Positions 1,842 to 42,900 of a DNA stretch of 64,000 nucleotides are shown here, one piece after another. This DNA comes from an uncultured Bacteroidota bacterium (GTDB lineage Bacteria; Bacteroidota; Bacteroidia; Bacteroidales; P3). A program made the position numbers and the translations under genes. The stretch is taken from the NCBI GenBank assembly GCA_902790215.1, contig CADAQX010000006.1, forward strand, positions 1-64,000, given 5' to 3'. Positions within the stretch are counted from its first letter, which is position 1. The number at the start of each line of letters is the position of its first letter. The notes under the pieces were generated by a model. That model saw only the letters and a list, made by a program, of their open reading frames with translations, was not told the origin of the DNA and searched no databases.

Positions 1842-1878
1842 CATTTTGCAAAATTGAATCTATCAAACAAAAAAAGAC

Positions 1879-3606: not shown

Positions 3607-3608
3607 AA

Positions 3609-3905: not shown

Positions 3906-5210
3906 ATGAAATTACGTATGCCTTTCCTTTTCTGCTTGGCTGTGTTGATTTGCGGGGTATCGGTTGCTCACGCCCAAAACGACTGGCTTACCGTCTATAT
4001 GGTCGATGGTCAGACCATCCAGATTGACGGAAACCAATACCCATACGGAACTGTTCGAAATAATGGAGATGCAGATGGCACCTGTCCCAATAATTTCAAT
4101 GGATATGCAGTAATCAGTGTGGACTCTGGAATGGCAATACACCTATACGGCCAATATTCTTTTAGAAACCTCAACGGATGGATTACCATTTGGGATGGCG
4201 ACACCAATGGCATACCGCTCAGTTGGAGGCTCACCGGAATCGGGACACTTAACGTCACTTCCACCAGTGGCAGAATAACCATCAGGGCTCAGACGGGTAC
4301 CGGCAATTTAGAACATTGCGGCTTCTTTTTCCACTATGCCGTTGCCGATCCTGACAGCTGCGCCAGTGTGATTGATTTGGCAGTAGATGATGCCTGCTGC
4401 GACTGTGAGCCCATGGAATACCAATTATACTGGCGATACAACTGGCAACCCCACCACTGGGAGGTGGAGTATGGCCCGCACGGCTTTGAATTGGGCAGCG
4501 GTACAGTCGTGGAGGTGGATGCAAACCAATGTGTTTTCAACCTCACCGAGCTTGAGTTTAACAGGTTGCTGCAACCTAACACTATATATGATTTCTATGT
4601 GCGCTCGGTGTGTGAAGACGGTTTGTATGGCGAATGGGACTCGGTGAGTTACCACACATACTGTGCCAGGGTGGATTCCATTACAGCATTGGAAGAGGAT
4701 GTCACGGTCACTCCTGACGGGCTTTTAGCGGGCTACAAGGCAACATGGCGCGACACCACCGACACAAGGCGGTGGTTTGTGTATTATCATCGGACAGGTT
4801 CAAATCCTTTTTGGGACAGTCCGTGCAAGTCTGCCTATGTAGACACGCCTTTGTATTGTTTTCCACCGCTTGCACCAAACATTCAATATTCATTTGTTGT
4901 GCAGTCCCTGTGCGATGGCTCAGGTGGCATTAAGCAATGGATTTACTTTACTACGGCGGATGTCGGCATCAACGAGACAGATGCTACAGACCTGTCGGTC
5001 AGTCCCAATCCCGCAGTTGGTCATTGCGTGGTAAGTCTTCCCGACAGCATGTCTGCCGAGTTAAAGCTGTATGGCTCCGACGGCCGTCTGTTGCAGACTG
5101 CTGCATACCACGGTGTTCCTGTCGAGTTGCAACTGCCCTCGCAAGGTGTATTCCTGCTACAAGCCACTACCGAAGCCGGCACAGTGACACGGAAGATTAT
5201 TAACAAGTAA
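3906..5210 (+). CDS. Secreted CUB-like/fibronectin-like protein with T9SS type A sorting domain
   Basis: The 434-residue product starts MKLRMPFLFCLAVL and has a signal peptide ending near VAHAQ. Residues 30-135 resemble a CUB-type beta-sandwich (VISVDSGMAIHLYG, ITIWDGDT). The middle (about 150-350) has fibronectin-III-like phrases such as NTIYDFYVRSVCEDG and NIQYSFVVQSLC. The last 75 residues (from LSVSPNPAVGHCVVSLP to TEAGTVTRKIINK) form a type IX sorting domain, so it should cross the outer membrane through the SprA translocon encoded at 39933-47096 and be attached or released at the surface. The start at 3906 places the signal peptide at the N-terminus; an in-frame ATG at 3831 would bury it. 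The ligand is unknown. Confidence 0.82.
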   Translation: MKLRMPFLFCLAVLICGVSVAHAQNDWLTVYMVDGQTIQIDGNQYPYGTVRNNGDADGTCPNNFNGYAVISVDSGMAIHLYGQYSFRNLNGWITIWDGDTNGIPLSWRLTGIGTLNVTSTSGRITIRAQTGTGNLEHCGFFFHYAVADPDSCASVIDLAVDDACCDCEPMEYQLYWRYNWQPHHWEVEYGPHGFELGSGTVVEVDANQCVFNLTELEFNRLLQPNTIYDFYVRSVCEDGLYGEWDSVSYHTYCARVDSITALEEDVTVTPDGLLAGYKATWRDTTDTRRWFVYYHRTGSNPFWDSPCKSAYVDTPLYCFPPLAPNIQYSFVVQSLCDGSGGIKQWIYFTTADVGINETDATDLSVSPNPAVGHCVVSLPDSMSAELKLYGSDGRLLQTAAYHGVPVELQLPSQGVFLLQATTEAGTVTRKIINK

Positions 5211-5214
5211 CCCT

Positions 5215-6000
5215 ATGGCTATTTTTTCGCATTGTCTACCTATTTGTTCTCTGACGGTGCTTTTGGTGGGCAGATGTACTTTGCCATCCATTCCTAACGA
5301 GGGAGGCGACACGGTTTCCATCCCATCAAACCTGGAGATTCCCGCTTACGGCACGGAGGAACACATCATCGAGTACAACGGTTTCACGGTCTCCTACAAC
5401 CACACCACGCTGGTGCCGAACTGGGTGGCCTACGAACTTACCGCCGAGGAACTGGAGGTGAAATACGACAGCCGCAGCTCCAACTTCAGCCGCGACCCCA
5501 ATCTGAGGGGGAAACAGGCCTCGCGCGAGGACTACTCCCACAGCGGCTGGGACAAGGGCCACATGGCTCCCAAGGCCGACCTGCGATGGAGCGAAAAGAG
5601 CTATTGGCAGAGCCATTATTTCCCCAACATCTGCCCCCAGAACCACCAGCTGAACGGCGGCGACTGGAACACGCTGGAGAAAACCGTGCGCCGCTGGGCA
5701 AGGCAATACGGCCGGGTGTGGATAGTGTGCGGCCCGGTGTTCGACTCATGCCGCCACGGCACCATCGGGCAGGCTCAGGTGCATGTGCCCGACGCTTTCT
5801 TCAAAGCATTGCTTGTCCACGACGGGAAAGAGTACCGCGCTGTGGCATACATCATGCCCAACGAGGGCAAGCACCATCCGCTGCGCCACTATGCCTGCAG
5901 CGTTGACCAACTGGAGGAGTTGATAGGTCGGGACTTGTTCCCTGCCTTGGATGACGAAACCGAGGCCAAGGTGGAAGCCTCGGTGAGGGGGATTGATTAG
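5215..6000 (+). CDS. DNA/RNA non-specific endonuclease (NUC family), exported
   Basis: The 261-residue protein contains the NUC active-site motif DKGHMAPKADLRW (usually DRGH; His is the general base) around residues 120-132. The metal-binding Asn region PNICPQNHQLNGGDWNTLE follows about 20 residues later. The N-terminus (CLPICSLTVLLVGRC) is hydrophobic and ends in a possible lipobox Cys, so it is either a lipoprotein or a secreted nuclease. It should cleave DNA and RNA without sequence preference, probably for nucleotide scavenging. It begins 5 bp after the T9SS cargo gene, suggesting co-transcription, and its stop overlaps the stop of the convergent receptor gene. Confidence 0.85.
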   Translation: MAIFSHCLPICSLTVLLVGRCTLPSIPNEGGDTVSIPSNLEIPAYGTEEHIIEYNGFTVSYNHTTLVPNWVAYELTAEELEVKYDSRSSNFSRDPNLRGKQASREDYSHSGWDKGHMAPKADLRWSEKSYWQSHYFPNICPQNHQLNGGDWNTLEKTVRRWARQYGRVWIVCGPVFDSCRHGTIGQAQVHVPDAFFKALLVHDGKEYRAVAYIMPNEGKHHPLRHYACSVDQLEELIGRDLFPALDDETEAKVEASVRGID

Positions 6001-8453
6001 CCCTGGCCGCCGCCCGATTCCTCGGTGGCGCCGGTCTTGGCACGGCTTTCCAGCTCCATCTTGCCAAAGCGCAGCGTGAGGCCGAAGGTGATGTAGCGGC
6101 TGTTCCATTTGTTCTGGCTGGTGGTGCTCATATAGGGGTTCTCGGTAGTTGAGCCCCATCCATTCCAATTGAAGATGTCGTTGCAGTTGAGGTAGAGCGA
6201 CAGCTTGCGGTCGAAGAAGTCGGCGCTGGCTCCGAGGTTGATGCCCTTGCGGGGTTCGCTGATGTACATCAGGCTCCAAGGGCTGATGGCACGGCTGCTG
6301 TAGTCGCCCGACACGAAGAGCTCCACCTTGTTCCACACCTTGGTCCACACTTTCAAGCGCACATTCCACGAGGGCATGCCTTTCTCCACCCACTCGTCGG
6401 GACGCACCTGCAGGTTGTACCACCTGTAGGCCACGCCGCCGTTGAGGCGTACGTTGAAGAAACCCGAGGGACGGTACATGACGTTGAAGTTGAGGTCGGC
6501 CTGCCGAGTGTCGCCTACATTGTAAGGCTTGGTGTACGACACAACTCTCCCGAAGAAATCGACATAGCGGGCATCGGGCAACGAGCCGCGCTTGTCCGCC
6601 TCGGCCCTGTAGGTGGCCGAAACGCCCACGGAGCCGAATTTCTCAAAATACTTGTTCCACGAGGCATCGACATTGTGGGAATAGGAAGGTTGCAGCAGCG
6701 GGTTTCCCGTTGAGTAGCTCTCTATGCCGAAGTTCTCATACCGGCTCAAACTCTCGGCATTGGGCTTGTTGGTGTGCATGGTGTAGCCGAGGCTGAAGTT
6801 GTGCATGTCCTTGGTGCGGTAGCTGAGGTGCACGGAGGGCGAGGCGGTGAAGTGATGCACGGCCGTGTCATACTCCGGAAGACCGTCGTGGCTGGAAGAG
6901 CTGTAGGCATATCTGCCACGCAGACCCAGTTTCATGGTAAAGTTGCCCCACTTGCGGCGCCAAGTCAGGTAGGCCGACACATCGCGGTCGTGGGTGCGGC
7001 TGCTGTCGGAGCGCAGGATGTCGCAGTAGTAGTTGCCGTCGGCATCCATGGTATCGCGCAGATACAGTTCGTATCCCCCGCCCATACCCAGATCCAGGCC
7101 TGTCTCTATTTCGCCCTGCTCGCTGTAGGGGTATGAGTAGTCGATACCTATGGAGCCATTGCCGCTCAAGTCGTTCGAGGCTATCTGGTGGTCGTAGTTC
7201 ATTTGGGGCTGGTAATCATAATGGCGCCAACTGGTTTCGTTGCGTTTCCACGACCACCAGTTGCCATCGAGGTTGATAGAATACTGATGCCCTTTCTTGT
7301 CGAACTTGTGGGTGTACCACAGCCCGCCGAAACCGCCGTTGTTGCTGCCGGAGGATTGCGAACCTGCGAGATAGCTCATATTATGCGGCGTGCCGACGAT
7401 GTCGTAGTCGGTGCGCGTCGTGGTGTCGTCGGTCTTGTCATTGCTGAAGCTTGGATAGGTGCCAAACCAGCCGCTGATGCTGTTCATCGAGTCAAACTCA
7501 TAGCTGGCGTTGAGGTTGCCCCAGATATTGTGGTGCCACGAACGGGTGCCCGAGTGGTTCTGCCATTCACGTGCGGGATGGAGACTGTCGTACATCATGA
7601 CTCCAGTTGACTGTCCCGCGCGTTTCCAGTCCGACCCGCTATAGCTGAGGTAGGCGCTGATGTTGAACTTCTCGTTGCTATAGACATACGACACCCACGG
7701 CGAGATGGAGGGGCGCGACGACCCGTTGGCGCCGAAGCTGACAAAGGAGTTCTTCAGCATCCGCTGGTTGGTGACGATGTTCACCACCGGGCCTTCGGAG
7801 CCATAGCGCGCCGAGGGGTTCTTGATGACCTCGATGCGGTCGATGCTGTTGGCCGGAAGGGTTTTGATGTACTGTTTGAGGGCTTCGCCTTCCAGGTGCG
7901 AGGGGCGGTCATTAATCCACACTGTCACCGACGAGCCGTTGAGGGTCACGTTGCCCTCTACATCGACTTCCACGCCGGGGGCGTTCTGCAGGGCGTCGCT
8001 GGCGTTGCCGGTCTGGATGCTGGCGTCCTCGCTGACATTGTAGAGGTCCTTCTCGCCATCGACGGCATACATCGGTTTCTTCTCCACAATCTTCACCACG
8101 TCGAGGAGCATGGCCCCTTCGGTCAGCACCGTGGTGCCCATGTCAATCTTGCCGAGCCCCGTGGGGCCGCCGTCGCGTGTGTTCGGCACCGCCACAAACA
8201 CCGTGCCGTAGCCCATGGCCGAGATGCGCAGCACCGTGGCCACAGTGTCGTTATTCAGACTGTAAACCCCTTTGTCGTCGGTCACCGTGCCGCGCACAAA
8301 CGTGCTGTCGTCGGCACGCAGCATGGCAATGTTGGCATACATCACCGGCTGACGGTCCTTCTCGTTGATTAGCTTCCCAGTCACAATATGTTGGGCGCCA
8401 CACACGGTGGACACCACTGTGAACATGATAATTAGCAATAATTTCCGCGTCAT
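5997..8453 (-). CDS. TonB-type outer-membrane beta-barrel receptor with carboxypeptidase-like N-domain
   Basis: The 818-residue protein has a signal peptide (MTRKLLLIIMFTVVSTVCGAQ) and then a CarboxypepD_reg-like beta-sandwich (about 22-105, HIVTGKLINEKDRQPVMYAN). A plug-like region follows (about 110-240) with DALQNAPGVEVDVEGNV and IDRIEVIKNPSARYGSEG. The rest is a long beta-barrel rich in alternating aromatic and polar residues, of the outer-membrane barrel type found in Bacteroidota. A SusD partner is absent, so substrate uptake in the SusCD manner is not supported. It should sit in the outer membrane and import or bind an unknown ligand. It is convergent with the endonuclease gene and shares 3-4 bp with it. 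Confidence 0.85.
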   Translation of the reverse strand: MTRKLLLIIMFTVVSTVCGAQHIVTGKLINEKDRQPVMYANIAMLRADDSTFVRGTVTDDKGVYSLNNDTVATVLRISAMGYGTVFVAVPNTRDGGPTGLGKIDMGTTVLTEGAMLLDVVKIVEKKPMYAVDGEKDLYNVSEDASIQTGNASDALQNAPGVEVDVEGNVTLNGSSVTVWINDRPSHLEGEALKQYIKTLPANSIDRIEVIKNPSARYGSEGPVVNIVTNQRMLKNSFVSFGANGSSRPSISPWVSYVYSNEKFNISAYLSYSGSDWKRAGQSTGVMMYDSLHPAREWQNHSGTRSWHHNIWGNLNASYEFDSMNSISGWFGTYPSFSNDKTDDTTTRTDYDIVGTPHNMSYLAGSQSSGSNNGGFGGLWYTHKFDKKGHQYSINLDGNWWSWKRNETSWRHYDYQPQMNYDHQIASNDLSGNGSIGIDYSYPYSEQGEIETGLDLGMGGGYELYLRDTMDADGNYYCDILRSDSSRTHDRDVSAYLTWRRKWGNFTMKLGLRGRYAYSSSSHDGLPEYDTAVHHFTASPSVHLSYRTKDMHNFSLGYTMHTNKPNAESLSRYENFGIESYSTGNPLLQPSYSHNVDASWNKYFEKFGSVGVSATYRAEADKRGSLPDARYVDFFGRVVSYTKPYNVGDTRQADLNFNVMYRPSGFFNVRLNGGVAYRWYNLQVRPDEWVEKGMPSWNVRLKVWTKVWNKVELFVSGDYSSRAISPWSLMYISEPRKGINLGASADFFDRKLSLYLNCNDIFNWNGWGSTTENPYMSTTSQNKWNSRYITFGLTLRFGKMELESRAKTGATEESGGGQG

Positions 8454-8480
8454 AATAAGAAAATTTAGAAGATTGCTTGA

Positions 8481-8563
8481 AAAAGTTGAGAGTTGAAAGT
8501 TGAGAGTTGAGAATTATCCGGGTGCGGCAGCAACTTTCAACTTTCAATTTTCAATTTTCAATT
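8481..8563. repeat. Dispersed repeat, family B (copy 1)
   Basis: Units of about eight bases (TTGAGAGTTGAAAG and its complement) flank a core, GAGAATTATCCGGGTGCGGC, forming an imperfect hairpin between two minus-strand genes. The same core recurs inside folK (15239-15256) and in the long repeats at 26078 and 59740. Confidence 0.65.
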
Positions 8564-8579
8564 CGTCAAGCAATCATTG

Positions 8580-9968
8580 TCAGCTGTTCATGGTCTGCTC
8601 TATCTCGGCAACGGTCTTGGGGATGGGTTTGCCCAGCACCCGGCAGCCGTCGGCGGTGACGAGGATGTCGTCCTCGATGCGGATGCCGCCGAAGTCTTTC
8701 CACTTCTCCAGCTCGTCGAAATTGATATAGTCTTTGTTGGTTCCCTGGGCGTTCCACTGGTCGATGAGTGCGGGGATAAAGTAGCAACCGGGCTCGTCGG
8801 TGATGACAAAGCCGGGCTGCAGACGGCGGCCGCAGCGCAGGCTGCCCAGGCCGAACTGGCTGCTGGGGCGTGTCTCGTCGTCGTAGCCTACGTTGATTTG
8901 GCCGTAGTTCTCCATGTCGTGCACGTCGAGGCCCATCATGTGGCCGAGGCCGTGGGGCATGAGAAGGCTGTGGGCGCCGTTGGCCACGATGTCGTCGAGG
9001 TTGCCCTTGAGGATGCCAAGGTCTTTGTAGCCTTGTGCCAGGATGCGACTGGCGGCGGTGTGCACCTCCTGATAGGTGATGCCGGGGCGGGTAACACGGA
9101 TGGCCTCGAGGTTGGCGTTGAGGACAATCTCGTAAATAGCCTTCTGGCGAGCATCGAAACGGCCTCCCACAGGCACCGTGCGGGTGATATCGGAGCAATA
9201 GCTCATCTCAGTTTCGCAGCCTGCGTCCATGACGAGCATGCGGCCCAGTTCGAGTTTGTGGTTGTGGTTGTGGTTGTGAAGTGTTTCGCCGTGGATGGTC
9301 ATGATGACGGGGAAGGAGACGGGGCCGTTGCCTTTCCATGCCTCGCCCTGCATGAAACCTGCCAGCTCGTACTCGTAACGGCCGGGCATAGCCATCTTCA
9401 TGGCCCCGACATGCATGTTGTAGGCGGTGGCGATGGCCTTTTCGATTTCGGCTATCTCTTCGTCGCTCTTGATGCTGCGTTGCTTGACACAGGCCAGGAT
9501 AAGCTCCATGGAGGCGTAGTTCTTGACGGCGTCGAACTTGTGACCCAGCAGCACACTGAGCTGACGCTGGTTGTCGGCACGGTAGGGCGGCAGGTAATGG
9601 ATGCGGCGCGCCTCGCCGATGGTCTTGTTGCAGAGGGTCTGCAGGGCAGCGAGGTCACCGCTGTTCGCCACACCCACGCTGGCGGCCAGTTCCTTGACGC
9701 TGGGCAGGGGGCCTGTCCAGATGACATCGTCGATGTCGTAGTCGTTGGCGAAGACATAGTCTTTGCCATTGTCACAGTCGAGCACACCTACCAGGTCTTC
9801 GCGCTGGAGGCCGAAGAAATAGAGGAAGGTGCTGTCCTGACGGAACCAATAGGTGTTGTCGGGGTAATTGCAGGGTGCTTCGTGGTTGCCCTGGATGATG
9901 ATAAGCCCGTGGCCTACGTCCTTGCGCAGCTGTTCACGACGGGCGATATAAGTCTCTTTTTTGAACAT
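8580..9968 (-). CDS. Xaa-Pro aminopeptidase (aminopeptidase P, peptidase M24B)
   Basis: The 462-residue protein has an N-terminal AMP_N domain (about 1-140) and a C-terminal pita-bread M24 domain. The five metal ligands of the family are visible: Asp in VMDAGCE, Asp in SDITRTVPVGG, His in HGLGHMMGLDVHD, Glu in ITDEPGCY and Glu in GGIRIEDDIL. It removes an N-terminal residue that precedes proline from peptides, using two Mn2+ or similar ions, most likely in the cytoplasm, since no signal peptide is seen. The start MFKKETYIARREQLRK is the natural beginning of the AMP_N domain. A family B repeat separates it from the downstream receptor gene on the same strand. Confidence 0.93.
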   Translation of the reverse strand: MFKKETYIARREQLRKDVGHGLIIIQGNHEAPCNYPDNTYWFRQDSTFLYFFGLQREDLVGVLDCDNGKDYVFANDYDIDDVIWTGPLPSVKELAASVGVANSGDLAALQTLCNKTIGEARRIHYLPPYRADNQRQLSVLLGHKFDAVKNYASMELILACVKQRSIKSDEEIAEIEKAIATAYNMHVGAMKMAMPGRYEYELAGFMQGEAWKGNGPVSFPVIMTIHGETLHNHNHNHKLELGRMLVMDAGCETEMSYCSDITRTVPVGGRFDARQKAIYEIVLNANLEAIRVTRPGITYQEVHTAASRILAQGYKDLGILKGNLDDIVANGAHSLLMPHGLGHMMGLDVHDMENYGQINVGYDDETRPSSQFGLGSLRCGRRLQPGFVITDEPGCYFIPALIDQWNAQGTNKDYINFDELEKWKDFGGIRIEDDILVTADGCRVLGKPIPKTVAEIEQTMNS

Positions 9969-22166: not shown

Positions 22167-22955
22167 TTAGAAATGCCCTGTGTATGGACACACTATATAT
22201 GTGACATCCTTTAGATCAACTCCAAGATTAGAAAAACCGCTGCTTACAACTATTTCTTTCTTTCCATCTATAACTAAGTAACGGTCATGGTGACTGTTCA
22301 CCCTCAAATCTTTCTCCTCGATTGTCCATGCGTAAAACCTGCACAACTGTTTTCCTATATCCTTGTGGTCATATATTATACTGCCATTCCCACCATACTC
22401 ATCTCTGTTATGTATTACTATTCGAACCTCCTTATTTTGTGGGAGAATTCTTGACAATGCGTCCAACGCATTTGCACTTGTCGTCGCAGAGAGATATTTA
22501 TCAAACACAATTATCTCTTTTGCATCCTTGCACAGACTCTTAATATGGCTTATCGCCTTCTGTCGGCTTTCGTGGGCATAATAAGACCCGGCCACGACCG
22601 TCCTTATTTTCTCGGATGAATTATGGATATTTACATACGGAAATGACTCCTTACTAGTTGATAAGATTCCTTGGTAGAATGTATGAGCCGCAAGTTCCTC
22701 TAAACCAAGACCATTCACACCCTTATGCTGTAATTGGATTTCCAGTCCTCTCGGCATATCTATTTTCAACCTTTCTGCTTGTGCCTTGTTATAAAGAAAA
22801 GGTTTTATATGGTATGACAACAATTCCTGTATAACTCTGCTATTATATATATCACCTACCCCCACACATTCTTCCGGATTCATGTATTTATGGTATTCCC
22901 TAAATAAATCATCCTCCAACACAAAACTATAATTATATTTCAACTCCAGTTTCAT
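22167..22955 (-). CDS. PLD-like phosphodiesterase domain protein of a three-gene putative defence cassette
   Basis: The 262-residue protein is AT-rich in coding and not obviously similar to a named family over most of its length. At the C-terminus (about 222-245) is HHDRYLVIDGKKEIVVSSGF followed by SNLG. This resembles the HxKx4Dx6GSxxN active site of phospholipase D-like nucleases, with Arg for Lys. A Rossmann-like segment before it (KEIIVFDKYLSATT, VRIVIHNRD) fits the PLD fold. Only one such motif is present, so a dimer would be needed. No signal peptide or membrane segment is seen. Its start overlaps the ATPase stop by 4 bp, so the two are probably translationally coupled. Inferred role: the nuclease effector of the cassette. 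Confidence 0.68.
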   Translation of the reverse strand: MKLELKYNYSFVLEDDLFREYHKYMNPEECVGVGDIYNSRVIQELLSYHIKPFLYNKAQAERLKIDMPRGLEIQLQHKGVNGLGLEELAAHTFYQGILSTSKESFPYVNIHNSSEKIRTVVAGSYYAHESRQKAISHIKSLCKDAKEIIVFDKYLSATTSANALDALSRILPQNKEVRIVIHNRDEYGGNGSIIYDHKDIGKQLCRFYAWTIEEKDLRVNSHHDRYLVIDGKKEIVVSSGFSNLGVDLKDVTYIVCPYTGHF

Positions 22956-23962
22956 GCATCAACCTCCATTAACTCATTCAGTGTAGCATCAAAGAAACCG
23001 TCTGGGAACGGTACTGCATATTTCCCACCGCGCTTCAATGGAATAACATCAAATGGTGAAATAATATCTCTTTTATACAAAATAGTCACTTCATCATGTC
23101 TCAATTCATTAGCGTACACCGCATACTGCACACGGTTGATCAAATGTTCACAATGCGTTTCAATAATCACTTGAACACCTGCATGTGCTATAAAAGCAAA
23201 AAACTCACCGAGCTTCGCTTGCGCCGATGGATGTAAATGTATCTCAGGGTTTTCAATAACAACCACATCACCTTTCTTTGCCCTCAAACATGTGATGAGA
23301 ATCTCTGCAATGAAAGTCACTCCTGTACCAAGGTTAGATGGAGTAATGTTAGGTATACCATCACTCTCATACGTAACACTTATTATTTCTTGACCGGACA
23401 AAACTTCTGTACGTATACGTATGCTTTGCTCTAATATATACGACATCCATCTGTCAATCTGATACCCCAAGGTTTTTGATTCTTCATATCGGTACAATTC
23501 CTCTATCACAGGATTTGACTTCTCCCACTGATATGTGCCAAAAGAGTCCATCCCATCAGGTGAGATGGATAAATCTCCTTCTGATTTTGTTGCTGTAATA
23601 TCTCTAATATATCGGTTTGCCGATAAGTAATATAATCCATTACCATACCCAATGGGAATGGTCAGATCTTTTTTTACATCACTTTTAGTGGGTTGCATTA
23701 TCATCTCCTCTATTCCAGCACTACCATAGTCTACAATTATAGAGATATTGTCATCGGTAATATAACGACACTTAATGATCTCGTATTTTTTAGAGATACT
23801 ACCTATCACCTGTTTTAGGTGAAATGATTCTGGCAACAGCAGTGCATGAAGCAAAGAGCTCTTTCCCGTGGAGTTCAGCCCTGTTACAATTGTCAATGGC
23901 TTTAGTTCTATATCTGCATTATCAATACATTTATAGTTTTTTATTTTCACTCTTTCTATCAT
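22952..23962 (-). CDS. AAA/ABC-class ATPase (AAA_21/DUF3696-like) of the putative defence cassette
   Basis: The 336-residue ATPase starts MIERVKIKNYKCIDNADIEL, the usual opening of SMC/RecF-like ATPases. It has Walker A GLNSTGKSSLL (28-38), a signature-like SNLGTGV, Walker B with VVVIENPEIHLHPSAQAKLG and a switch His in IETHCEHLINR. The last residues (VPFPDGFFDATLNELMEVDA) match the DUF3696-type tail seen in stand-alone ATPases of defence and mobile loci. It overlaps the DUF262 gene by 32 bp upstream and the PLD-like gene by 4 bp downstream. Inferred role: nucleotide-driven sensing or loading of DNA, controlling the partner effector. Confidence 0.85.
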   Translation of the reverse strand: MIERVKIKNYKCIDNADIELKPLTIVTGLNSTGKSSLLHALLLPESFHLKQVIGSISKKYEIIKCRYITDDNISIIVDYGSAGIEEMIMQPTKSDVKKDLTIPIGYGNGLYYLSANRYIRDITATKSEGDLSISPDGMDSFGTYQWEKSNPVIEELYRYEESKTLGYQIDRWMSYILEQSIRIRTEVLSGQEIISVTYESDGIPNITPSNLGTGVTFIAEILITCLRAKKGDVVVIENPEIHLHPSAQAKLGEFFAFIAHAGVQVIIETHCEHLINRVQYAVYANELRHDEVTILYKRDIISPFDVIPLKRGGKYAVPFPDGFFDATLNELMEVDA

Positions 23963-25091
23963 ATTCTTGCGCTTTGGAAATAATAAAATCGAATCTTTTT
24001 AAAAGTTTTCCTCCCGACTCATTCTTACCATTAAACAACTCGGTTTCATCTGCATCCTTTTTCAAACGGTTAAAATCCACATTAGAAAAATCCCCACGCA
24101 AATCCTCCCCATTCATAAACAAAAAGCCAAGCGATTCAAATAATAACATATTAATCGGTCTTCTTTGCTTATCACTACTCCTCTGTGCAAATCGAAAAGC
24201 ATCGCTGCCAATTATTGTATATATCTTGCGCATGGCCATCAAAAAAACATTCTTTATTCGGTTCATCTCAACCTCTGACATTTGGTTGTTAATATACTCC
24301 ATACTTTTAGCCAAAAATTCCTCAATATCACCCTTGTATTCAATCGGCTTACTAATTTTATCGAAACGATGAGTCAGGAGCATATAGAATGAAATCAGCC
24401 TTAAAATAACATATTCATCCTTTTTTCGATTAGACGAAATGCCACGCCCTGTGGCATTTAAGAATTCTTTCGTCTTTGCCAATTCATTTATTAACTTTGT
24501 CGATTTACCATGGTACAGCGCATTTCGCATTTCCTGATTATTCAATCTCACCCCACCTCGATTTACCCTGTCAAAAATATCATATTTTACACGCTCACTG
24601 GTAGGTGGCTTGATGATATAAAAATACAACTGATACCCACGTATCTGCATTTGCATTTTGGGGGACAAATCGCTGAAAAAAACATTCCTATACTGTTTAT
24701 CCGTCAATATTGTAAGATTCTTTAATTTGAATTTCCCACTGAGGAAATCCAATATTGTTGACAATCGTTGTTTTCCGTCTACCACTTGATATTTCCCTTC
24801 ATTGGTTTCGAAAAGATATATTACAGGTAACGGTATCCCCATAAGTATTGACTCTATTAGTTCGCATTTCCTCTGAGGATTCCAAACGTCTCCCCTTTGA
24901 AATTCCGGATTAATCATTATCATATTACCCTCATTAACAAGAGATCTAATAAAGTCTACCGCCCACTGGTTTTTATCAATGTTTACCTTTGCAGCCGGAT
25001 AAACATTGTCTTTGGAATCTGATAATTCTAACGGACTTTCCTCTGAGGGGCATAAATCGACCTCACCTTCTAAAATATCTTCTTTACTCAT
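23931..25091 (-). CDS. DUF262 (ParB/Srx-fold) protein of the putative defence cassette
   Basis: The 386-residue protein contains the DUF262 core: PEFQRGDVWNPQRKCELIES (from about residue 62), ILMGIPLPVIYLFE, and the nucleotide-handling motif VVDGKQRLST (103-112, the DGQQR-type motif). The rest is helical. The C-terminal HNH (DUF1524) domain of GmrSD-type restriction enzymes is absent, so cleavage would have to come from a partner. The start at 25091 (MSKEDILEGE) is 9 codons inside the window-supported frame and follows its own promoter. Family knowledge: DUF262 proteins act in defence (GmrS, BrxU, SspE). Its place as first gene of the cassette suggests a sensor or NTPase role; this is inference. 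Confidence 0.87.
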   Translation of the reverse strand: MSKEDILEGEVDLCPSEESPLELSDSKDNVYPAAKVNIDKNQWAVDFIRSLVNEGNMIMINPEFQRGDVWNPQRKCELIESILMGIPLPVIYLFETNEGKYQVVDGKQRLSTILDFLSGKFKLKNLTILTDKQYRNVFFSDLSPKMQMQIRGYQLYFYIIKPPTSERVKYDIFDRVNRGGVRLNNQEMRNALYHGKSTKLINELAKTKEFLNATGRGISSNRKKDEYVILRLISFYMLLTHRFDKISKPIEYKGDIEEFLAKSMEYINNQMSEVEMNRIKNVFLMAMRKIYTIIGSDAFRFAQRSSDKQRRPINMLLFESLGFLFMNGEDLRGDFSNVDFNRLKKDADETELFNGKNESGGKLLKRFDFIISKAQEYDRKSENKKL

Positions 25092-25114
25092 CAAAATCAA
25101 ATCTTATTAAAATG

Positions 25115-25149
25115 CAAAGATACCACTTTTTTTCTAATTAATAAAAAAA
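25115..25149 (-). promoter_or_regulatory. Promoter of the DUF262-ATPase-PLD cassette
   Basis: Minus-strand TATCTTTG (25122-25115) has a T-rich TTTT-like -33 box at about 25143-25149, 20 bp upstream. It starts right after the rpmA terminator, so the cassette has an independent promoter. Confidence 0.6.
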
Positions 25150-25173
25150 GCGTGCAGTTTTGCACGCTTTTTT
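25142..25173 (-). terminator. Intrinsic terminator after rpmA
   Basis: GCGTGCA (25150-25156) pairs with TGCACGC (25161-25167) around a 4-base loop, with A/T runs on both sides, so it works for the minus-strand rplU-rpmA transcript and could act in both directions. Confidence 0.75.
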
Positions 25174-25193
25174 CATAAGTTCATAATACATTT

Positions 25194-28766: not shown

Positions 28767-28799
28767 TTTGCATTATATCGAAAAAAAACCATATCTTTG
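28767..28799 (+). promoter_or_regulatory. Promoter of the first BspA-like gene
   Basis: TTTG (28767-28770), a 21-bp spacer and TATCTTTG (28792-28799), 39 bp before the ATG at 28839. Confidence 0.65.
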
Positions 28800-28838
28800 C
28801 AGCCGCATACAACAATAAAAAGGGAAAGGACACACGAT

Positions 28839-30368
28839 ATGAAACGACTACATGCAATACTGACACTTATCGTGGCTGCAATGGCCGTGCTGACTGCTGG
28901 TTGCCAAAAGGAGAAAGAATCTGGCACCGTCACTCTGACTGCCGAAATACAAGAAACACTGAGCGGCAACGGGAAGGTCTTCATCGATGGCGATACCCCT
29001 TGTTGGCATAACGACGACGAGGTGTTTATCAACAACGCGGCCTACGCCGTCACATCAGCATCGGGCTCTTTGGCACAGATTGAGAATGTGATGCCTGCCA
29101 ATAGCTACCAAGCCATCTTTCCCGCCGGAATTGTGGCCAAAAGCAGCCCAAGCAGTGATAACAGCATTAAAGTGACCCTCCCCTCAATGCAGACCTACCG
29201 AATTGCTGATGGCCACCAGCAACTGGATTTGCCAATGGGAGCCAGTCTGACCAGCGGCAACACACTGCGTTTCTACAACCTTTGCTCCATCGTGCGAGTG
29301 ACAGTCCACAACCAATTGAACCATGAGCTTCTGCTGGACGGTATAAAACTCAAAGCCAAGAATGCAAAACTTAGCGGCTCGGGCATTGCAACAATCAGCA
29401 GAAACACGTTCGACAGCATCAGCATGTCCGATAGCGCACAAAACAGCGTGAGGCTGGACTTTACCACCGACTGCCCTGCTACGGTGGAGGCACAAGGTAC
29501 TGGCTCCTTCGACATCGTGGTGCCACCATTCACTCCCGACGATGTGACGCTATCGCTCTACACTCCCGACGGATATATGTGCGAAATGGTGATGGAAGGG
29601 ATGTCATTGGCTCGGAACACCATTGCCTCAGTGACGCTGGATGTAACGGCGTTGACTGAAGCCCCTGCCGAATTGATAAGCGGTCCAGCCTTTAACTATG
29701 CCATCCCTAAGCTCAAAAATGTCTCAACGGTGGTGTTTGAATACAACAGTCCTGTCACATCCGGCACCCTGCTCTCCACCCCGGACTCCCCTTTCCCCAT
29801 CTATGGCAATCTTGATGGAACCACATGGAGGGTCTCGACAAGAGCCTGCCAGATTCATGCAAATCCAAATTGCTCTCGCATGTTTGAATCTGACTATGGT
29901 TTAAGTGCGGATCAACATGGAAGATATTATTATGAACGTCTCAAATTGGTAGAAATTGATTTTGGAAACAGATTTATCACTGATAATGTGACTGATATGA
30001 GCTACATGTTTATTCTAAGTGGGGAATTGACAAGTATTGACCTCTCCAATTTCAACACCGAGAAAGTAACGGATATGAGTGGCATGTTTTGGTGTTGTTG
30101 GAAATTGACAAGGTTGGATGTCTCAAGTTTCAACACCGTGAATGTGACCGACATGAGCGAAATGTTTTGGGGTTGCGAAAGCATGACAAACCTGAACCTC
30201 TCTCATTTTGACATGAGTGGTGTGTCCAATAAACAATGCATGTGCCGTAACCTTTCCACCGAATCCGGTGCCTGTACCATCACCTGCCCGGCAGCAGTGC
30301 GGACAGCCTTGGAACACGGGACAGACCTGCCCACTTCCGAGGTTGTCTTCACTTGGGTGACGCCGTGA
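28839..30368 (+). CDS. BspA-like (DUF285) surface lipoprotein, tandem copy 1
   Basis: The 509-residue protein starts MKRLHAILTLIVAAMAVLTAGC (lipobox TAGC). The N-terminal 270 residues resemble the fimbrillin-like sandwich of its neighbour (HNDDEVFINNAAYAVTSASG, FYNLCSIVRVTVHN). The C-terminus carries DUF285/BspA repeats of about 23-25 residues (VTDMSYMFILSGELTSIDLS, NFNTEKVTDMSGMFW, NVTDMSEMFWGCESMTNLNL). It should be surface-anchored by lipid. It is a near-duplicate of the next gene, with fewer BspA units. Confidence 0.78.
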   Translation: MKRLHAILTLIVAAMAVLTAGCQKEKESGTVTLTAEIQETLSGNGKVFIDGDTPCWHNDDEVFINNAAYAVTSASGSLAQIENVMPANSYQAIFPAGIVAKSSPSSDNSIKVTLPSMQTYRIADGHQQLDLPMGASLTSGNTLRFYNLCSIVRVTVHNQLNHELLLDGIKLKAKNAKLSGSGIATISRNTFDSISMSDSAQNSVRLDFTTDCPATVEAQGTGSFDIVVPPFTPDDVTLSLYTPDGYMCEMVMEGMSLARNTIASVTLDVTALTEAPAELISGPAFNYAIPKLKNVSTVVFEYNSPVTSGTLLSTPDSPFPIYGNLDGTTWRVSTRACQIHANPNCSRMFESDYGLSADQHGRYYYERLKLVEIDFGNRFITDNVTDMSYMFILSGELTSIDLSNFNTEKVTDMSGMFWCCWKLTRLDVSSFNTVNVTDMSEMFWGCESMTNLNLSHFDMSGVSNKQCMCRNLSTESGACTITCPAAVRTALEHGTDLPTSEVVFTWVTP

Positions 30369-30412
30369 AGTTGCCAACGAAACATCAGCATTCCGAACCA
30401 ACACACCAGCAC

Positions 30413-30444
30413 TTTTACACTTTCAAAAAAAGTTTGTATCTTTG
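30413..30444 (+). promoter_or_regulatory. Promoter of the second BspA-like gene
   Basis: TTTT (30413-30416), a 20-bp spacer and TATCTTTG (30437-30444), within the duplicated intergenic region. Confidence 0.6.
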
Positions 30445-30499
30445 CCATCGGAAAAGCTATTCTTGCGACTGTCTTTTTTAACAATAAAAAATTTTAGAT

Positions 30500-32101
30500 A
30501 TGAAACGACAACATGCAATACTGACACTTATCGTGGCTGCGATGGCCGTGCTGACTGCAGGTTGCCAAAAGGACAAAGAGTCCGTCACTCTGACTGCCGA
30601 AATACAAGAAACACTGAGCGGCAACGGAAAGGTCTTCATCGATGGCGATACCCCTTGCTGGCATAACGGCGACGAGGTGTTTATCAACAACGCGGCCTAC
30701 CCCGTCACATCAGCATCGGGCACTTTGGCACAGATTGAGAATGTGGTGCCTGCCAATAGCTACCAAGCCATCTTTCCCGCCGGGATTGTGTCCGAAAGCA
30801 GCCCAAGCAGTGATAACAGCATTAAAGTGACCCTTCCCTCAATGCAGACCTACCGAATTGCTGACGGTCGCCAGCAACCGGATTTGCCGATGGGAGCCAG
30901 TCTGACTAGCGGCAACACCCTGCGATTCTACAGCCTTTGCTCCATCGTGCGAGTGACAGTCCACAACCAATTGAACCGTGAGCTTCTGCTGGGCGGTATA
31001 AAACTCAAAGCCAAGAATGCAAAACTTAGCGGCTCGGGCATTGCAACAGTCAGCAGATACGCTTTCGACAGCATCAGCATGTCCAAGAAAGCACAAAACT
31101 ACGTGAGACTGGACTTTACCACCGACTGCCCTGCTACGGTGGAGAAACAAGGTACTGGCACTTTCGACATCGTTGTGCCACCATTCACTACCGACGATGT
31201 GACGCTCACGCTCTACACTTCCGACGGATATATGTGCGAAGTGTTGAAGGAAGGAATGTCATTGGCTCGGAACACCATTGCCTCGGTGACGCTGGATGTA
31301 TCGGCGTTGACCGAAGCCCCTGTCGAATTGATAAGTGGTCCGGCCTTTAATGCTGCCATGAAGAATAAACATGTCTCAAAGGTGGTGTTTGAATACAACA
31401 GCCCCGTTTCATCCGGCACCCTGCTCTCCACCCCAGACTCCCCTGTCCCCATCTATGGCAATCTTGATGGTACCACATGGAGGGTTTCGACAAGAGCCAG
31501 CCAGATTCATGCAAATCCAGATTGCTCTAACATGTTTGAATCTGAATATGGTGTGAGTATGGATTTTCATGGGAGATATTATTATTATGAATCTCTCAAA
31601 TTGGTAGAAATTGATTACGGGAACAGATTCATCACTGATAATGTGACTAATATGAGATGCATGTTTTGTCTTAGTGGAGAACTGACAAGTATTGACCTCT
31701 CCAATTTCAACACCGAGAAAGTAACGGATATGTTTTTCATGTTTGCGGATTGTCATAGCCTAACGAACTTGGATCTTTCCAACTTCAACACCGAGAATGT
31801 GACGAATATGAGCAGTATGTTTGGGGGTTGTGAGAAATTGACGAGGCTGGACATCTCAAACTTCAGCACCGAAAAAGTGACCGACATGAGCGAAATGTTT
31901 TGGGGTTGCGAAAGCATGACAAACCTGAACCTCTCTCATTTTGACATGAGTGGTGTGTCCAAAAAACAATGCATGTGCCGTAACCTTTCCACCGAATCCG
32001 GTGCCTGTACCATCACCTGCCCGACAGCTGTGCGGACAGCCTTGGAAAACGGGACAGACCTGCCCACTTCCGGCGTTGTCTTCACTTGGGTGACGCCGTG
32101 A
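30500..32101 (+). CDS. BspA-like (DUF285) surface lipoprotein, tandem copy 2
   Basis: The 533-residue product is nearly the same as copy 1 through the lipobox (MKRQHAILTLIVAAMAVLTAGC) and the fimbrillin-like N-domain. It has one more BspA unit before the shared ending (DMFFMFADCHSLTNLDLSNF, NTENVTNMSSMFGGCEKLTR). The last 50 residues, from CESMTNLNLSHFDMSG to the C-terminus, match copy 1 closely. The intergenic DNA downstream of each copy (starting GAAGTTGCCAACGAAACATC) is also duplicated. Repeat-number change between copies is typical of surface antigens. Ligand unknown. Confidence 0.78.
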   Translation: MKRQHAILTLIVAAMAVLTAGCQKDKESVTLTAEIQETLSGNGKVFIDGDTPCWHNGDEVFINNAAYPVTSASGTLAQIENVVPANSYQAIFPAGIVSESSPSSDNSIKVTLPSMQTYRIADGRQQPDLPMGASLTSGNTLRFYSLCSIVRVTVHNQLNRELLLGGIKLKAKNAKLSGSGIATVSRYAFDSISMSKKAQNYVRLDFTTDCPATVEKQGTGTFDIVVPPFTTDDVTLTLYTSDGYMCEVLKEGMSLARNTIASVTLDVSALTEAPVELISGPAFNAAMKNKHVSKVVFEYNSPVSSGTLLSTPDSPVPIYGNLDGTTWRVSTRASQIHANPDCSNMFESEYGVSMDFHGRYYYYESLKLVEIDYGNRFITDNVTNMRCMFCLSGELTSIDLSNFNTEKVTDMFFMFADCHSLTNLDLSNFNTENVTNMSSMFGGCEKLTRLDISNFSTEKVTDMSEMFWGCESMTNLNLSHFDMSGVSKKQCMCRNLSTESGACTITCPTAVRTALENGTDLPTSGVVFTWVTP

Positions 32102-34777: not shown

Positions 34778-36436
34778 TCACTTATCCTTTATTAATTCGC
34801 GAGCAGTTTGGAGGGCTGCCGCAGTGGGTGGATTGGAGGAGAGCATGACGGCTATTTCAGTCACATGCTCATCGGGGGAAAGCTGTCGTATGCGGGATAT
34901 TGTCGCCTTGTCCTCCACGGCTTTCGACACCTTGAAATGCTGTCCTGCCTTGGCGGCAATCTGAGGCAGGTGGGAGATGGCAATGACCTGCATGTGCCCG
35001 GCCATGTGCCGCATGATGACGCCCACGGCCACGGAGATGTCGCCAGAAACACCGCTGTCTATCTCGTCAAAGATGATTGTCGGCAACAGACTGCGACGTG
35101 TGACCAGTGACTTTATGGCCAGCATGAGGCGCGACAGTTCTCCACCCGAGGCCACATCGGCCAATGGGCGCGGCACGCCTCCGTAGTTGGCATTGAAAAG
35201 CAGCCGCACCGTATCGTGGCCCATGGGGCCATAGTCCAGCGCAGGCGCGATGTCGGCCACAATGCGGGCCGAGCCCATACCCACTTGCGAGAGCACCGGC
35301 ATCAGCTGTTTCTCGAGCGTGACACCTGCTTTGCGGCGGCTTGCCGTGAGGCTGTCGGCGCACTTCTGCATCTGTGCGAAGATTTTGTCCACCTGCTCCA
35401 TGAGGCTGCGGATGCGGTCGTCGAGACTGTCGGCATCCTGCAGCTGCCTTTCAAGATTCTGTCGGATATCGAGCAGAGCGGCAATGGAGTCAACCCCGTG
35501 TTTCTTCTGAAGACGGTAGATAAGGTCAAGCCGCTCGTTTACCTCGGCCTGCCGCTCGGGCGAATACTGAATCCTGTCGTCGAGGCTTGCCACCTCCGAG
35601 AGTATGTCCTGCACCTCGATAAGGCAGGAGTCGAGCCGGGAGCAGAGAGATTCAATTCCGTCGTGATACGGAGCCACCTGCTGCAGGGCGCTGCGCGAAG
35701 CGGAAAGGCGCGGGACAACCCCGTCGTCCTCCTGTCCATCGCACATGACAGCCACTCGGCCCAAGGCCTCTTTGATTGTCTCGGCGTGTTCGAGCAAATG
35801 CGCTTCCTCTTCCAGTTCGTGCTGTTCGTCGGCATCCAAATGGGCAGCGCACAGCTCGTTGTAGAGAAAGAGGTTATAGTCGCGTGCCTTGTTGTTCTCG
35901 GCATCCTGGGCGGTAAGTTTCTCCAGTTCGTGTTTCAGTGCAGAATACTGCCGATATAGCTCTTGGTATTGCGGCAGGGGAGAGTCGGCGGCAAGGGTGT
36001 CGAGCAACTGTGTCTGGAAAGTGCTCTCGGTGAGGGTGAGCGTCTGGTATTGCGAGTGGATATCGAGGATGTGGGCTCCGAGTTCCTTCAGAAACTGCAG
36101 GTTGGCAGGGCTGTCGTTGACGAAGGCGCGGCTCTTGGCCGAAGGGAGAATCTCCCGCCGCAGGATGAGGGTGTCGTCGTAGTCGGCATCGTAGCGTTCA
36201 AAGAGTGGCTCGAGTCCCAGCCCAGCAATATCGAAAGTGGCCTCAACAACACATTTGCTGTCTTTGTCGGAGAGCACCTGCGTATCAGCACGCTGCCCCA
36301 ACAGCAGACCCAGAGCACCCAACAGGATAGACTTTCCCGCACCCGTCTCGCCGGTGATGACCACAAAGCCCTTGTCGAAAGCAATATCCGTCTCGCGAAT
36401 CAGTGCGTAGTTTTCAATATGCAGTGTCTTCAGCAT
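34778..36436 (-). CDS. recN: DNA repair ATPase RecN
   Basis: The 552-residue SMC-like protein starts MLKTLHIENYALIRETDIAF. Walker A GETGAGKSILLGAL follows at about 30-43, and two coiled-coil arms fill the middle (KLTAQDAENNKARDYNLFL region, NERLDLIYRLQKKHGVDS). Near the C-terminus are the signature DVASGGELSRLMLAIKSLV, Walker B TIIFDEIDSGVSG and the switch His in QVIAISHLPQIAAKAG. It acts on broken DNA ends in double-strand break repair in the cytoplasm. I chose 36436 over the longer in-frame start because it begins exactly at the family's N-terminus. It lies 16 bp after sufS. Confidence 0.93.
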   Translation of the reverse strand: MLKTLHIENYALIRETDIAFDKGFVVITGETGAGKSILLGALGLLLGQRADTQVLSDKDSKCVVEATFDIAGLGLEPLFERYDADYDDTLILRREILPSAKSRAFVNDSPANLQFLKELGAHILDIHSQYQTLTLTESTFQTQLLDTLAADSPLPQYQELYRQYSALKHELEKLTAQDAENNKARDYNLFLYNELCAAHLDADEQHELEEEAHLLEHAETIKEALGRVAVMCDGQEDDGVVPRLSASRSALQQVAPYHDGIESLCSRLDSCLIEVQDILSEVASLDDRIQYSPERQAEVNERLDLIYRLQKKHGVDSIAALLDIRQNLERQLQDADSLDDRIRSLMEQVDKIFAQMQKCADSLTASRRKAGVTLEKQLMPVLSQVGMGSARIVADIAPALDYGPMGHDTVRLLFNANYGGVPRPLADVASGGELSRLMLAIKSLVTRRSLLPTIIFDEIDSGVSGDISVAVGVIMRHMAGHMQVIAISHLPQIAAKAGQHFKVSKAVEDKATISRIRQLSPDEHVTEIAVMLSSNPPTAAALQTARELIKDK

Positions 36437-36452
36437 GAATTCTTCATCGTAT

Positions 36453-37646
36453 TTAGTCCAACATCGGAGCAATGCGGTTGAGGGCATTGACGAGAGCGTC
36501 TATGTCGTCTCGTTTGGTATAGCAGGCAAAGCTGGCACGCACCGTTCCGGGGATGCCGTAGCGGTCCATGACGGGCTGCGTGCAGTGGTGTCCGGTGCGC
36601 ACGGCAATGCCCAGTTTGTCGAGCAGCGTGCCCACATCATAGGGATGGGCGTTGCCCAGCAGGAAAGAGACAACCCCGGCTTTGTGCGGAGCCGTGCCAA
36701 AGAACCGCATGCCCGGCACCTCTTTGAGTTGTTTCATGGCATAGTGCAGCAGCTCCTCCTCATGGCGGGCAATGCTTTCAATGCCCTGTTCTTTCATAAA
36801 GTCAATGGCGGCACCCAATCCCAGCACGTCGCCCACCGAGGGGGTTCCCGCCTCGAAACGGAAAGGCAGCTCGTTGTATGTCGTGCGCTCAAAAGTCACA
36901 TCCTTTATCATTTCGCCACCGCCTTGATAAGGAGGCAGCTGCCCAAGGATTTCCTCACGTCCGTACATCACGCCCACACCCATCGGGGCATACATCTTGT
37001 GCCCGGAGAAACAGTAGAAATCGCACCCCAGTGCCTGCACGTCCACAGGCATGTGAGCAACAGCCTGGGCACCGTCAATCAGCACGGGCACACCATGGGC
37101 ATGAGCCATCGCCACAATCTCTTTCACGGGGTTCACCGTGCCCAGCGTGTTGGACACATGACAGCAGGCCACCATGCGCGTGCGCTTAGTGAACAACGAT
37201 TCATACACCTGCAGGTCAAGCACACCCTCGTCGCTGAAAGGGATAACCTTCAGGCGTGCACCCGCCCTCTCGCAGGCCAGCTGCCAAGGCACGATGTTGC
37301 TGTGGTGCTCCATGCCCGACACAATCACCTCGTCGTACTCGCGGAGTCCCTGGCCAAAAGAGGAGGCCACCAGATTGATGCTCTCCGTAGTGCCGCGGGT
37401 GAAGACAATCTCACTACTGCTGCGGGCATTGATAAACTGCTGCACCTGCCGGCGTACCTCCTCGTAGCGTTCTGTGGCACGGGCGGCCAGATAATGAGCG
37501 CCACGGTGGATATTGCTGTTCAGCGTCAGATAGTAATTGGTGAGCGCATCAATCACCTGCCTCGGCTTCTGAGTCGTGGCGGCATTGTCGAGATACACCA
37601 ACGGATGGTTATATACAGTCGTGTCAAGTATTGGAAAATCCATCAT
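36453..37646 (-). CDS. sufS: Cysteine desulfurase, SufS class
   Basis: The 397-residue PLP enzyme releases sulfur from cysteine for Fe-S cluster assembly. Hallmarks: LVYLDNAATTQKPRQVIDAL, FTRGTTESINLVA, the PLP-binding Lys in FSGHKMYAPMGVG, and the catalytic Cys in RTGHHCTQPVMDRYG near residue 360. The short group II (SufS) C-terminal loop is present. The other suf genes (sufBCD, sufE) are not in the window. Its 5' end overlaps the stop of a small membrane-protein gene by 4 bp. Confidence 0.93.
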   Translation of the reverse strand: MMDFPILDTTVYNHPLVYLDNAATTQKPRQVIDALTNYYLTLNSNIHRGAHYLAARATERYEEVRRQVQQFINARSSSEIVFTRGTTESINLVASSFGQGLREYDEVIVSGMEHHSNIVPWQLACERAGARLKVIPFSDEGVLDLQVYESLFTKRTRMVACCHVSNTLGTVNPVKEIVAMAHAHGVPVLIDGAQAVAHMPVDVQALGCDFYCFSGHKMYAPMGVGVMYGREEILGQLPPYQGGGEMIKDVTFERTTYNELPFRFEAGTPSVGDVLGLGAAIDFMKEQGIESIARHEEELLHYAMKQLKEVPGMRFFGTAPHKAGVVSFLLGNAHPYDVGTLLDKLGIAVRTGHHCTQPVMDRYGIPGTVRASFACYTKRDDIDALVNALNRIAPMLD

Positions 37647-39932: not shown

Positions 39933-42900
39933 TTAGAAACTAAATCTAACAGTGATACCACCCTTGGTGGTGGAGTTGGGGTAGGAATTGGAGATATAGG
40001 GAGTGTTGATATTCGTCTGGAAGAAAGCACGCAACGTCAACGACGTGGACAGAGCATATTCTGCCGACAGCTCAGCCATCCAGACCTCGCTGCCTGACGA
40101 CACCTGGCTCGACCGTCTGATGTCGTTTCGGTCGCTCTGGTTGATTTTGCGAATCAGAGTCTTATTGCTGTTATATGTTAGATTGAGTTGCAAAACTATG
40201 TCGCTCTTCAAATGATGTATCGTCTCCCCCACTTTCACATCGAAAGCCACATCCTTGAAACGGTATCCCCCACCCACGGTGATACCGTTGCGTGTGGTTT
40301 CGGTCAACTGGTTGTTCGAGAATCCCAGAGAGAGGGTTCTGTTCTTCTGCATGGAGAAATTCAGCTGTACACTGTTGGTCATGCTCATCGAAAGGCGCAA
40401 AAGAGGATTGAACTGTTCGTTTATCTGCACTCCCTCCATACTCACCGGGGCGATGAAATCGTCCGACCCGTTGAGCACCGTCTCTTTTCCATAGTCGTAC
40501 CCCTCCCGACCCGATATCGCTGCATCGGTGTAGAAACTGCCTATGCTGTAGGTAGAGGAATAGCGGTGCGACAGCGAGATGTTGTTGAACCATTTCTTCA
40601 AAGCCTTTATCTTGTTCAACCCGTTGTACGAAATCGACCAGTTGGGCAACGGCATTTTGAGGAACGGAGAGAAGGCATAGCTGCCGGCATCCTTGCCCAG
40701 ATAGGTGGCAAGGAAGCTGGTCAGCAGAACTGTTTGCTGGTTGGCCCCGTAGCCGAAGGGATAGTACTCGCCATTCATTGTGTCAAGAACCATCTCATCG
40801 CAACGCGGATCGCTGTTTGCCGCAGCCAGCCTGTCGGCCACCACTCTGCGATTGCCCAGGAAAGTGGCGTACAATTCATCGGTCGAAACAAAAGCCGTTG
40901 CCATGCTCCAGCAGGTGGTGGTGTAGGACCCTGCCATAACATATGACAACGGACCCTCCACCGCATCGGAGATACTCATATACTTGTAGTAGTACTCATC
41001 GTGCATCTGATAGTTTTGATTGGCACTCAAATCTATCTTAAAGTCGCGTATGGGCTCGATTGTTGCCTGCATAGTCAGCATCTTGCTGTTTGTATTCTGG
41101 TGGGCACTGTTCATCAAGGTGTCGGTGGAGAGCAGGTTATCGTCCCGCAATCTGTCCACCAGTCCATTGTTATATCCCATTACGAATGCAGGGCCCGGCA
41201 TCCAGCCATTTCTTGGATCCATGCCCAAGAAACTCGCCGTACCCATATATCCAGGCAGAACAGCACCCATTGAATTGCTATACTGCACCGAGAAGGACTT
41301 GAGCCCTGTAACAAAACGGATAGCAAAATTGCCCAATTCGCCCAAGACCTCGGCAGTGTGCGCCCTGCGCACTGAGTCAGGGTTCTTCGCCCTTGCTATA
41401 GAGTCTTGTACAGCCTTCTCCTTCTCTTTTTTCGTCATGCGTTTGGGGTCTTTGGGCTGTGTACTGTTTTTCTGCTTATATGCATTCTTGATAAAGTCAA
41501 AACGGTTGTAAAGGGTCTGCATTGTGCCGGACACTGATGCCTGCAGCTGTGTGGAGCTGTTTAATGTGCTGCCCTGCGACGCCAACGCCTGGGTGGTGCC
41601 CATAAAGTTGTACGTAGTCCGATAGGAAACAGGGACGCGGAGAAAATCGAGGTAAGGCAATTTATTGATAGGGACTTCCCAAGTGGCATTGACCGCCTGC
41701 TGGAAATTCTGCATTGTTCCTCCATGCAAAAGCGACTGGCTGATGGCATCGCGGCTTTCGCGTGTGTCAACACGTCCGATAGGCTCGTCTATGCGGGCAT
41801 TGGCTGTGGCGCTGTACTGCAAGTGCAGGCTTTTGCTTATATCCCATTGCAAGCCATATTCACGCCGCCATGTAAACTGCTTGTAGTAGGTCGGCCTCAA
41901 TATCACCAGGGCAGCGCCCTTCTTCCGCAACAGGGTCTCTTCATAATCGCGATATACCTCGGTACTGAAGGAGATGTTTTTCGGCTTGTAGTAAAGATTG
42001 AAATCCTTGATGAATTTCCCGTTCTTGCTATTGACGAACTTGGAGCTGGACTTGGCAAAGGGTGCAAACAGTCCCGGCTCGCGCGGCGTGTAGGCATAGG
42101 TAAATCCCCCTCGGTGCTGGTCTTTGTTGAAATAGGCGAGTTCATCGTTCGACGACCGCTCCCGGCTGTAGGAATATGAGAAGGTGAAGTTCTCTATATC
42201 ATAGAAATGGGGTTTCAGCGCTTTCTTGCCAGTACGCTCTTTGCGCATATTGGTAAGCGTCAGGTTGGTGGTGGTGTGTCTCTCCTGCGCCATGTTTCTG
42301 ACGCTGTCGCGACTGTCCTTGTCGGGATAGGTTTTCAAGTCTTCCCGCAGCCGTACATCGGGGTCCATGGGGTTGTATTCGGGACTGCCCACCTGCTTGT
42401 TCCAGTCGAGATACAAAGGTATGTGAACGCCCCAGTCTTCGGGCAGGAACTTACCCAGCTCCATATCCAGAGTCGATTGCATCTGGAGGGTGTTGATCAA
42501 CTCAAGAGACGTGGGTTTCTCTTCCAGATTGCCAAAGCCCGAGGTGCGGTAGGAACCATATAGCGACAGATTGCCAAGGTCGGCCAGATTGGTGCGTGCC
42601 AATGCCATAGCTGCCCAGCCTCCCCTATTGTTGAAATCTGTCAAACGGAGCTCGTTGATCCATACGATGCAGGACTTCGGCATCATGTCGTTGCCGTCGT
42701 CAAGGGACTCTTTCTTTGGATTGCGGACTCCGACCATAATCACCTTCACCTTGCCTAGATTGGGAGTGCCCAGAACAGTGTACTTCCTTCCATCCACGTA
42801 TTCACTGTAAAGCAGCTGGCTGCTATAGGAAAGGTCGCCGTTGCGGATAAGCCTGTTACGGTTTGTCTTGATATCGACGAGTTTGGTGAGGTCAATCTCG

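Follow-up and report, generated by a model that had tools for sequence, protein, structure and literature searches.

A probable Menshen-type operon with a PLD-like third protein, located between rpmA and a DAHP synthase/chorismate mutase gene in an uncultured Bacteroidota bacterium

The window analysed here is a stretch of 64,000 nucleotides from an uncultured Bacteroidota bacterium (order Bacteroidales). It contains a cassette of three minus-strand genes located between rpmA and a gene for DAHP synthase/chorismate mutase (aro; Table 1). The three open reading frames are intact and contain no internal stops, and the overlaps of 32 and 4 bp given in a preliminary description of this DNA were borne out. 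The nsnA frame as a whole spans 23931-25100 and has alternative starts, an ATG at 25091 and a TTG at 25100. The cassette is AT-rich relative to both flanks, as had been described, with a GC content of 0.373 vs 0.606 for aro and 0.549 for rpmA, and less so when compared with the rplU open reading frame (0.446). Among the larger open reading frames between rpmA and aro, no gene besides the three and no integrase was recognised, and no notable repeat was found in the flanks.

Table 1. Features of the cassette and of its upstream edge (positions in the window)
Feature	Position	Strand	Description
nsnA	23931..25091	-	DUF262 (ParB/Srx-like NTPase) protein, motif DGKQR; PADLOC NsnA, Pfam GmrSD_N
nsnB	22952..23962	-	SMC/OLD-like ABC ATPase; PADLOC NsnB, Pfam AAA_15/AAA_21
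nsnC	22167..22955	-	N-terminal NsnC region (~9-113) and predicted C-terminal PLD-fold domain (~115-257; H223, R225, D230, S239)
TATCTTTG box	25115..25122	-	Candidate Bacteroidota-type -7 promoter box 5' of nsnA
rpmA terminator hairpin	25141..25176	-	Retained 5' of the cassette, where it marks the right edge of the insertion; MFE -20.5, z -6.1; relatives have empty sites

A promoter had been proposed at 25115-25149. A TATCTTTG box of the Bacteroidota -7 type does occur there and comes after the strong rpmA terminator hairpin. The window holds 44 copies of TANNTTTG vs 29.6 expected, and one match on its own is therefore weak evidence for a promoter.

Genomes of the same genus were used to examine the insertion site. 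In six congeners, chosen because they carry both genes in the orientation of the window, rpmA and the DAHP synthase/chorismate mutase gene adjoin on the same strand and the site is empty: their coding matches are 102-153 nt apart, vs 3078 nt in the window. In several other congeners the aro gene adjoins rpmA on the opposite strand. Given these empty sites, the best reading is that this lineage acquired the cassette. A further congener (G028; L132, C57, ~640-8950) holds ~8.3 kb of other open reading frames at the rpmA-aro site, including, by eye, one sigma-factor-like and one lipoprotein-like frame, and the site may therefore be a repeated insertion point.

Several other features of the window were recorded. 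A 569-aa SMC_N/AAA_23 ATPase is encoded at 34778-36487 (minus strand), flanked by genes for an M23 peptidase and for an aminotransferase class V protein (SspA/DndA matches). It is similar to MADS mad3 (4.9e-26) and may be a RecN-like protein. Two adjoining DUF285 (leucine-rich-repeat-like) proteins, presumably of the BspA type, are encoded at 28797-32101 (plus strand), and an open reading frame of 2387 aa occupies 39933-47096 (minus strand).

PADLOC assigns the three genes to the families NsnA (1.5e-100, residues 30-373 of 389), NsnB (1.7e-72, residues 1-333 of 336) and NsnC (model PDLC03880, 3.6e-49, residues 8-256 of 262), symbols that we take to be those of the Menshen genes (Millman et al. 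2022). As in Menshen, a DUF262 gene, an AAA/OLD-like ATPase gene and a third gene adjoin on one strand in identical order; the difference is that the third protein here ends in a predicted PLD-fold domain. The preliminary description had offered the trio as an undescribed system. This was rejected, as all three genes have near-full-length matches to families that are already catalogued together. A literature search by the Nsn symbols returned nothing relevant. Menshen "domain polymorphism" is reported to be the subject of a 2025 article by Li et al. (NAR gkaf357).

The DUF262 domain of NsnA is recognised by Pfam (GmrSD_N, 5.6e-28), and the D, G, Q and R of its DGKQR motif are invariant in all 21 aligned NsnA rows. 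Mutation or deletion of the DUF262 gene leads to loss of Menshen protection (PMC10952713, Mariano and Blower 2023). The domain, with its DG(Q/K)QR motif, is shared with GmrSD, BrxU and SspE. In contrast to the nucleases of those systems, NsnA has no HNH or DUF1524 match in Pfam at E<=1, in line with the preliminary description; the cassette has its nuclease candidate in a PLD protein of its own and includes an ABC ATPase in addition. NsnA proteins at four other loci (L063 5529-7250, L064 5876-7681, L055 5166-6533 and L056 2876-4258) have 117-240 residues before the DUF262 match, compared with 51 in the window, and these extra parts have no Pfam match at the cut-off. Such variable N-terminal parts are perhaps target readers.

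NsnB is an AAA-type ATPase, as had been supposed (AAA_15 7.5e-24, AAA_21 1.2e-17). It carries a Walker A motif (GLNSTGKSS), a Walker B-type motif (VIENPE) and an H-loop-type motif (ETH), in which G28, N30, G33, K34, S35, E237, N238, P239, E240 and H270 are invariant in 21 of 21 rows. The DUF3696-like tail that had been ascribed to it is weakly supported, with a Pfam E-value of 0.18, under the cut-off. NsnB shares SMC/OLD-type ABC ATPase similarity with the ATPases of Gabija, PARIS and Septu (GajA, AriA and PtuA) but differs in its length of 336 aa and in a Pfam scan without a TOPRIM family.

NsnC has no Pfam match at E<=1, and PDB sequence searches with the single protein or with a profile gave chance-level matches only. 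Within PADLOC, a second NsnC model matches residues 9-113 (1.8e-5) and DrmC, which we take to be a PLD protein, matches residues 115-245 (4.3e-6). An AlphaFold model built from four sequences reached a mean pLDDT of 65.6 (moderate confidence), with block means of 76-79 over residues 121-150, 77-79 over 231-260 and 40-53 over 181-220; residues 218-223, including H223, are below 50. When this model was compared with the PDB by Foldseek, 54 chains matched at E<=0.001, and the 50 listed all belong, as far as is known, to proteins of the PLD fold. MITD1 was best (1.2e-6) and accounted for the five best matches, with NucT (2.3e-5), SauUSI (1.0e-4), Nuc (5.0e-4), PLD3 and TDP1 also present; the query-normalised TM-scores of the listed matches are low (0.26-0.36). 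The Foldseek viral library gave four matches at E<=0.001, two of them named PLD-superfamily proteins. The model thus supports a PLD fold for the C-terminal half, which the preliminary description had suggested from the sequence. Sequence comparison backs the fold less strongly, through the DrmC match and a weak MIT_C match.

The motif residues were examined in an alignment of seven NsnC rows, comprising the window and six others that are 24-37% identical to it; three are near-copies from Campylobacter, one of these truncated. H223, D224, R225, Y226, S239, G240 and K249 are invariant in all seven, and D230 is kept in six, the exception being L071 with N. Of the HDR...D...SN cluster pointed out earlier, the H, D, R and S are thus fully conserved and the second D (D230) nearly so, but the N is not conserved. 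The canonical PLD catalytic motif is HxK(x)4D(x)6GS. NsnC has HxR(x)4D followed by SSG/TSG, with the K of HxK replaced by R, and this replacement, together with the additional N-terminal NsnC region, distinguishes it from the single-motif nucleases NucT and Nuc and from the PLD-like domain of MITD1, with which its C-terminal half shares the predicted fold. NsnC is a probable phospholipase-D-type nuclease. Cleavage itself we infer, because the motif has HxR in place of HxK, the model is of low confidence around H223, the TM-scores are low, and MITD1 has a membrane-binding PLD fold that is not known to be catalytic.

PLD-type NsnC is rare in Bacteroidota. The window protein matches 2 of 395 genomes at E<=1e-8, one being its own and the other G445, which has the same locus as Parabacteroides acidifaciens 426-9; at E<=1e-7 it matches these two genomes again among 393 of the order. 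An NsnC profile matched 12 of 99 genomes at E<=0.001, 11 of them over part of the profile only (E 1.9e-6 to 8.1e-4); these 11 are assumed to be other PLD proteins. Among 59 genomes of the genus, its own included, this genome alone has a strong full-length match. The preliminary description had proposed counting how often the genes co-occur, and the trio does recur in the same order. Of 72,556 plasmid records, 19 match NsnC, all from Campylobacter, and of the four inspected, those of C. peloridis and C. jejuni carry adjoining DUF262, AAA and NsnC genes with small overlaps or close spacing. A scan of named genomes gave three loci, two of which, from P. acidifaciens and the gill symbiont of Bathymodiolus japonicus, hold the full trio, likewise closely spaced or slightly overlapping, with the same NsnC type (the Parabacteroides locus, present as L065 and L069 with an identical protein, was counted once).

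Incomplete loci were also seen. In two C. coli plasmids (L017 1711-2295, L018 4926-5509), NsnC is N-terminally truncated or broken and no NsnA or NsnB occurs in the stretch inspected around it, which suggests decay or an orphan effector. The third named locus, a Candidatus Parabeggiatoa contig (L071 4647-6630), has NsnB and the NsnC with N for the motif Asp, and no NsnA was found there by phmmer. Carriage by phages or other viruses was considered and rejected: none of 50,697 phage records matches NsnC at E<=1e-5, and two pattern scans of viral contigs confirmed no NsnC.

The third gene of the operon varies, and the NsnA-NsnB pair is more constant. At E<=1e-40, 45 of the 395 Bacteroidota genomes have a match to the NsnB family. 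With at most five candidates scored per genome, 61 places were listed, of which 20 were inspected (ranks 1-17, 18, 22 and 24); one of the remaining 41 is the window itself. NsnA lies directly upstream of NsnB in 17 of the 20, which are ranks 1-17, and is absent from the other three (L066-L068). One of these, L066 (698-4401), has a tandem of NsnB-like ATPase genes, encoding 514 and 688 aa, and NsnB matches also lie side by side in further genomes of its genus (G146, G275, G358, G409 and G417). Third genes were sought from -80 to +200 nt relative to the NsnB stop, with a length of at least 80 aa. All 17 NsnA-NsnB loci have one directly downstream, of 239-347 aa and starting at -70 to +17 nt. The window NsnC matches the third gene of one locus (G445) and leaves the other 16 unmatched (phmmer E<=1e-4). 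Ten of these 16 were scanned, and nine match NsnC models, L061 being without such a match. One of the ten has a C-terminal YoeB toxin domain (5.4e-16), and no Pfam match above the cut-off was obtained for the remaining nine. In an NsnB tree of 21 rows, the five PLD-type loci, two of which are Campylobacter near-copies, form one clade (100/99), and in an NsnA tree of 21 rows they group weakly (70/85). The PLD type of NsnC therefore appears to travel with its own NsnA and NsnB.

A mechanism can be proposed for the cassette. Most likely, NsnB (ABC ATPase) and NsnA (DUF262 NTPase) would form a complex that senses the infection, by recognising phage DNA or its replication state, and licenses NsnC. 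The N-terminal half of NsnC would dock on this complex. Nucleic acid would then be cut by the single-motif PLD domain at the C-terminus, in a dimer to which each subunit contributes one His. Taken together with this mechanism, it is quite likely that the cassette is a complete Menshen-type (NsnA-NsnB-NsnC) antiphage operon with a PLD-like effector, inserted between rpmA and the DAHP synthase/chorismate mutase gene. A wider claim is possible but rather less likely than not. It states that the PLD-ended NsnC defines a distinct Menshen subtype spanning Bacteroidota, Campylobacterota and Pseudomonadota, with a dimeric single-motif PLD nuclease that has a non-canonical His-Asp-Arg site and is controlled by a DUF262/ABC-ATPase pair, a pair which in other members of the family drives toxins like YoeB.

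The alternative that comes closest leaves the Menshen assignment in place and changes the role of NsnC. The PLD-like domain would not be a nuclease but would bind nucleic acid or membrane, as MITD1 does, to recruit or block, and killing or cleavage would be brought about otherwise. The MITD1 chains at the head of the Foldseek matches, a weak Pfam MIT_C match (0.011) in one of the seven aligned NsnC proteins, and H-D-R in place of HxK all speak for it. However, NucT, SauUSI, PLD3, TDP1 and Nuc, which we take to be enzymes, match as well, H223 is invariant in every row, and the third protein with a YoeB domain makes an enzymatic effector at the third position plausible. We regard the non-nuclease role as unlikely.

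Decay of the locus must also be weighed. A degenerate, silent relic of Menshen could be suspected from the restriction of a strong full-length NsnC to this one genome within the genus and from the broken, solitary NsnC genes of the C. coli plasmids. The three full-length reading frames, the conserved NTPase and HDRY motifs and the promoter-like box upstream argue against it, and a relic is very improbable. Still less credible is a new three-gene system that is unrelated to Menshen and merely shares widespread DUF262, AAA and PLD domains. DUF262 and AAA_21 are indeed common in many defence systems (the PADLOC list includes PD-T4-2, AriA, GajA and others), but the Nsn models lead the next non-Nsn PADLOC family by ~220 bits for NsnA, 144 bits for NsnB and 141 bits for NsnC, near full length. 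In sum, the cassette is a real member of the Menshen type that was acquired and is probably functional.

As the discovery of a system, the cassette adds little because Menshen has already been catalogued. Its interest lies in the family, where NsnA and NsnB, a putative sensing and licensing pair, are kept while the third protein varies, and one kind of complex may therefore activate effectors of very different kinds. The PLD type offers a compact set in which to ask what NsnA and NsnB detect and how the effector is released.
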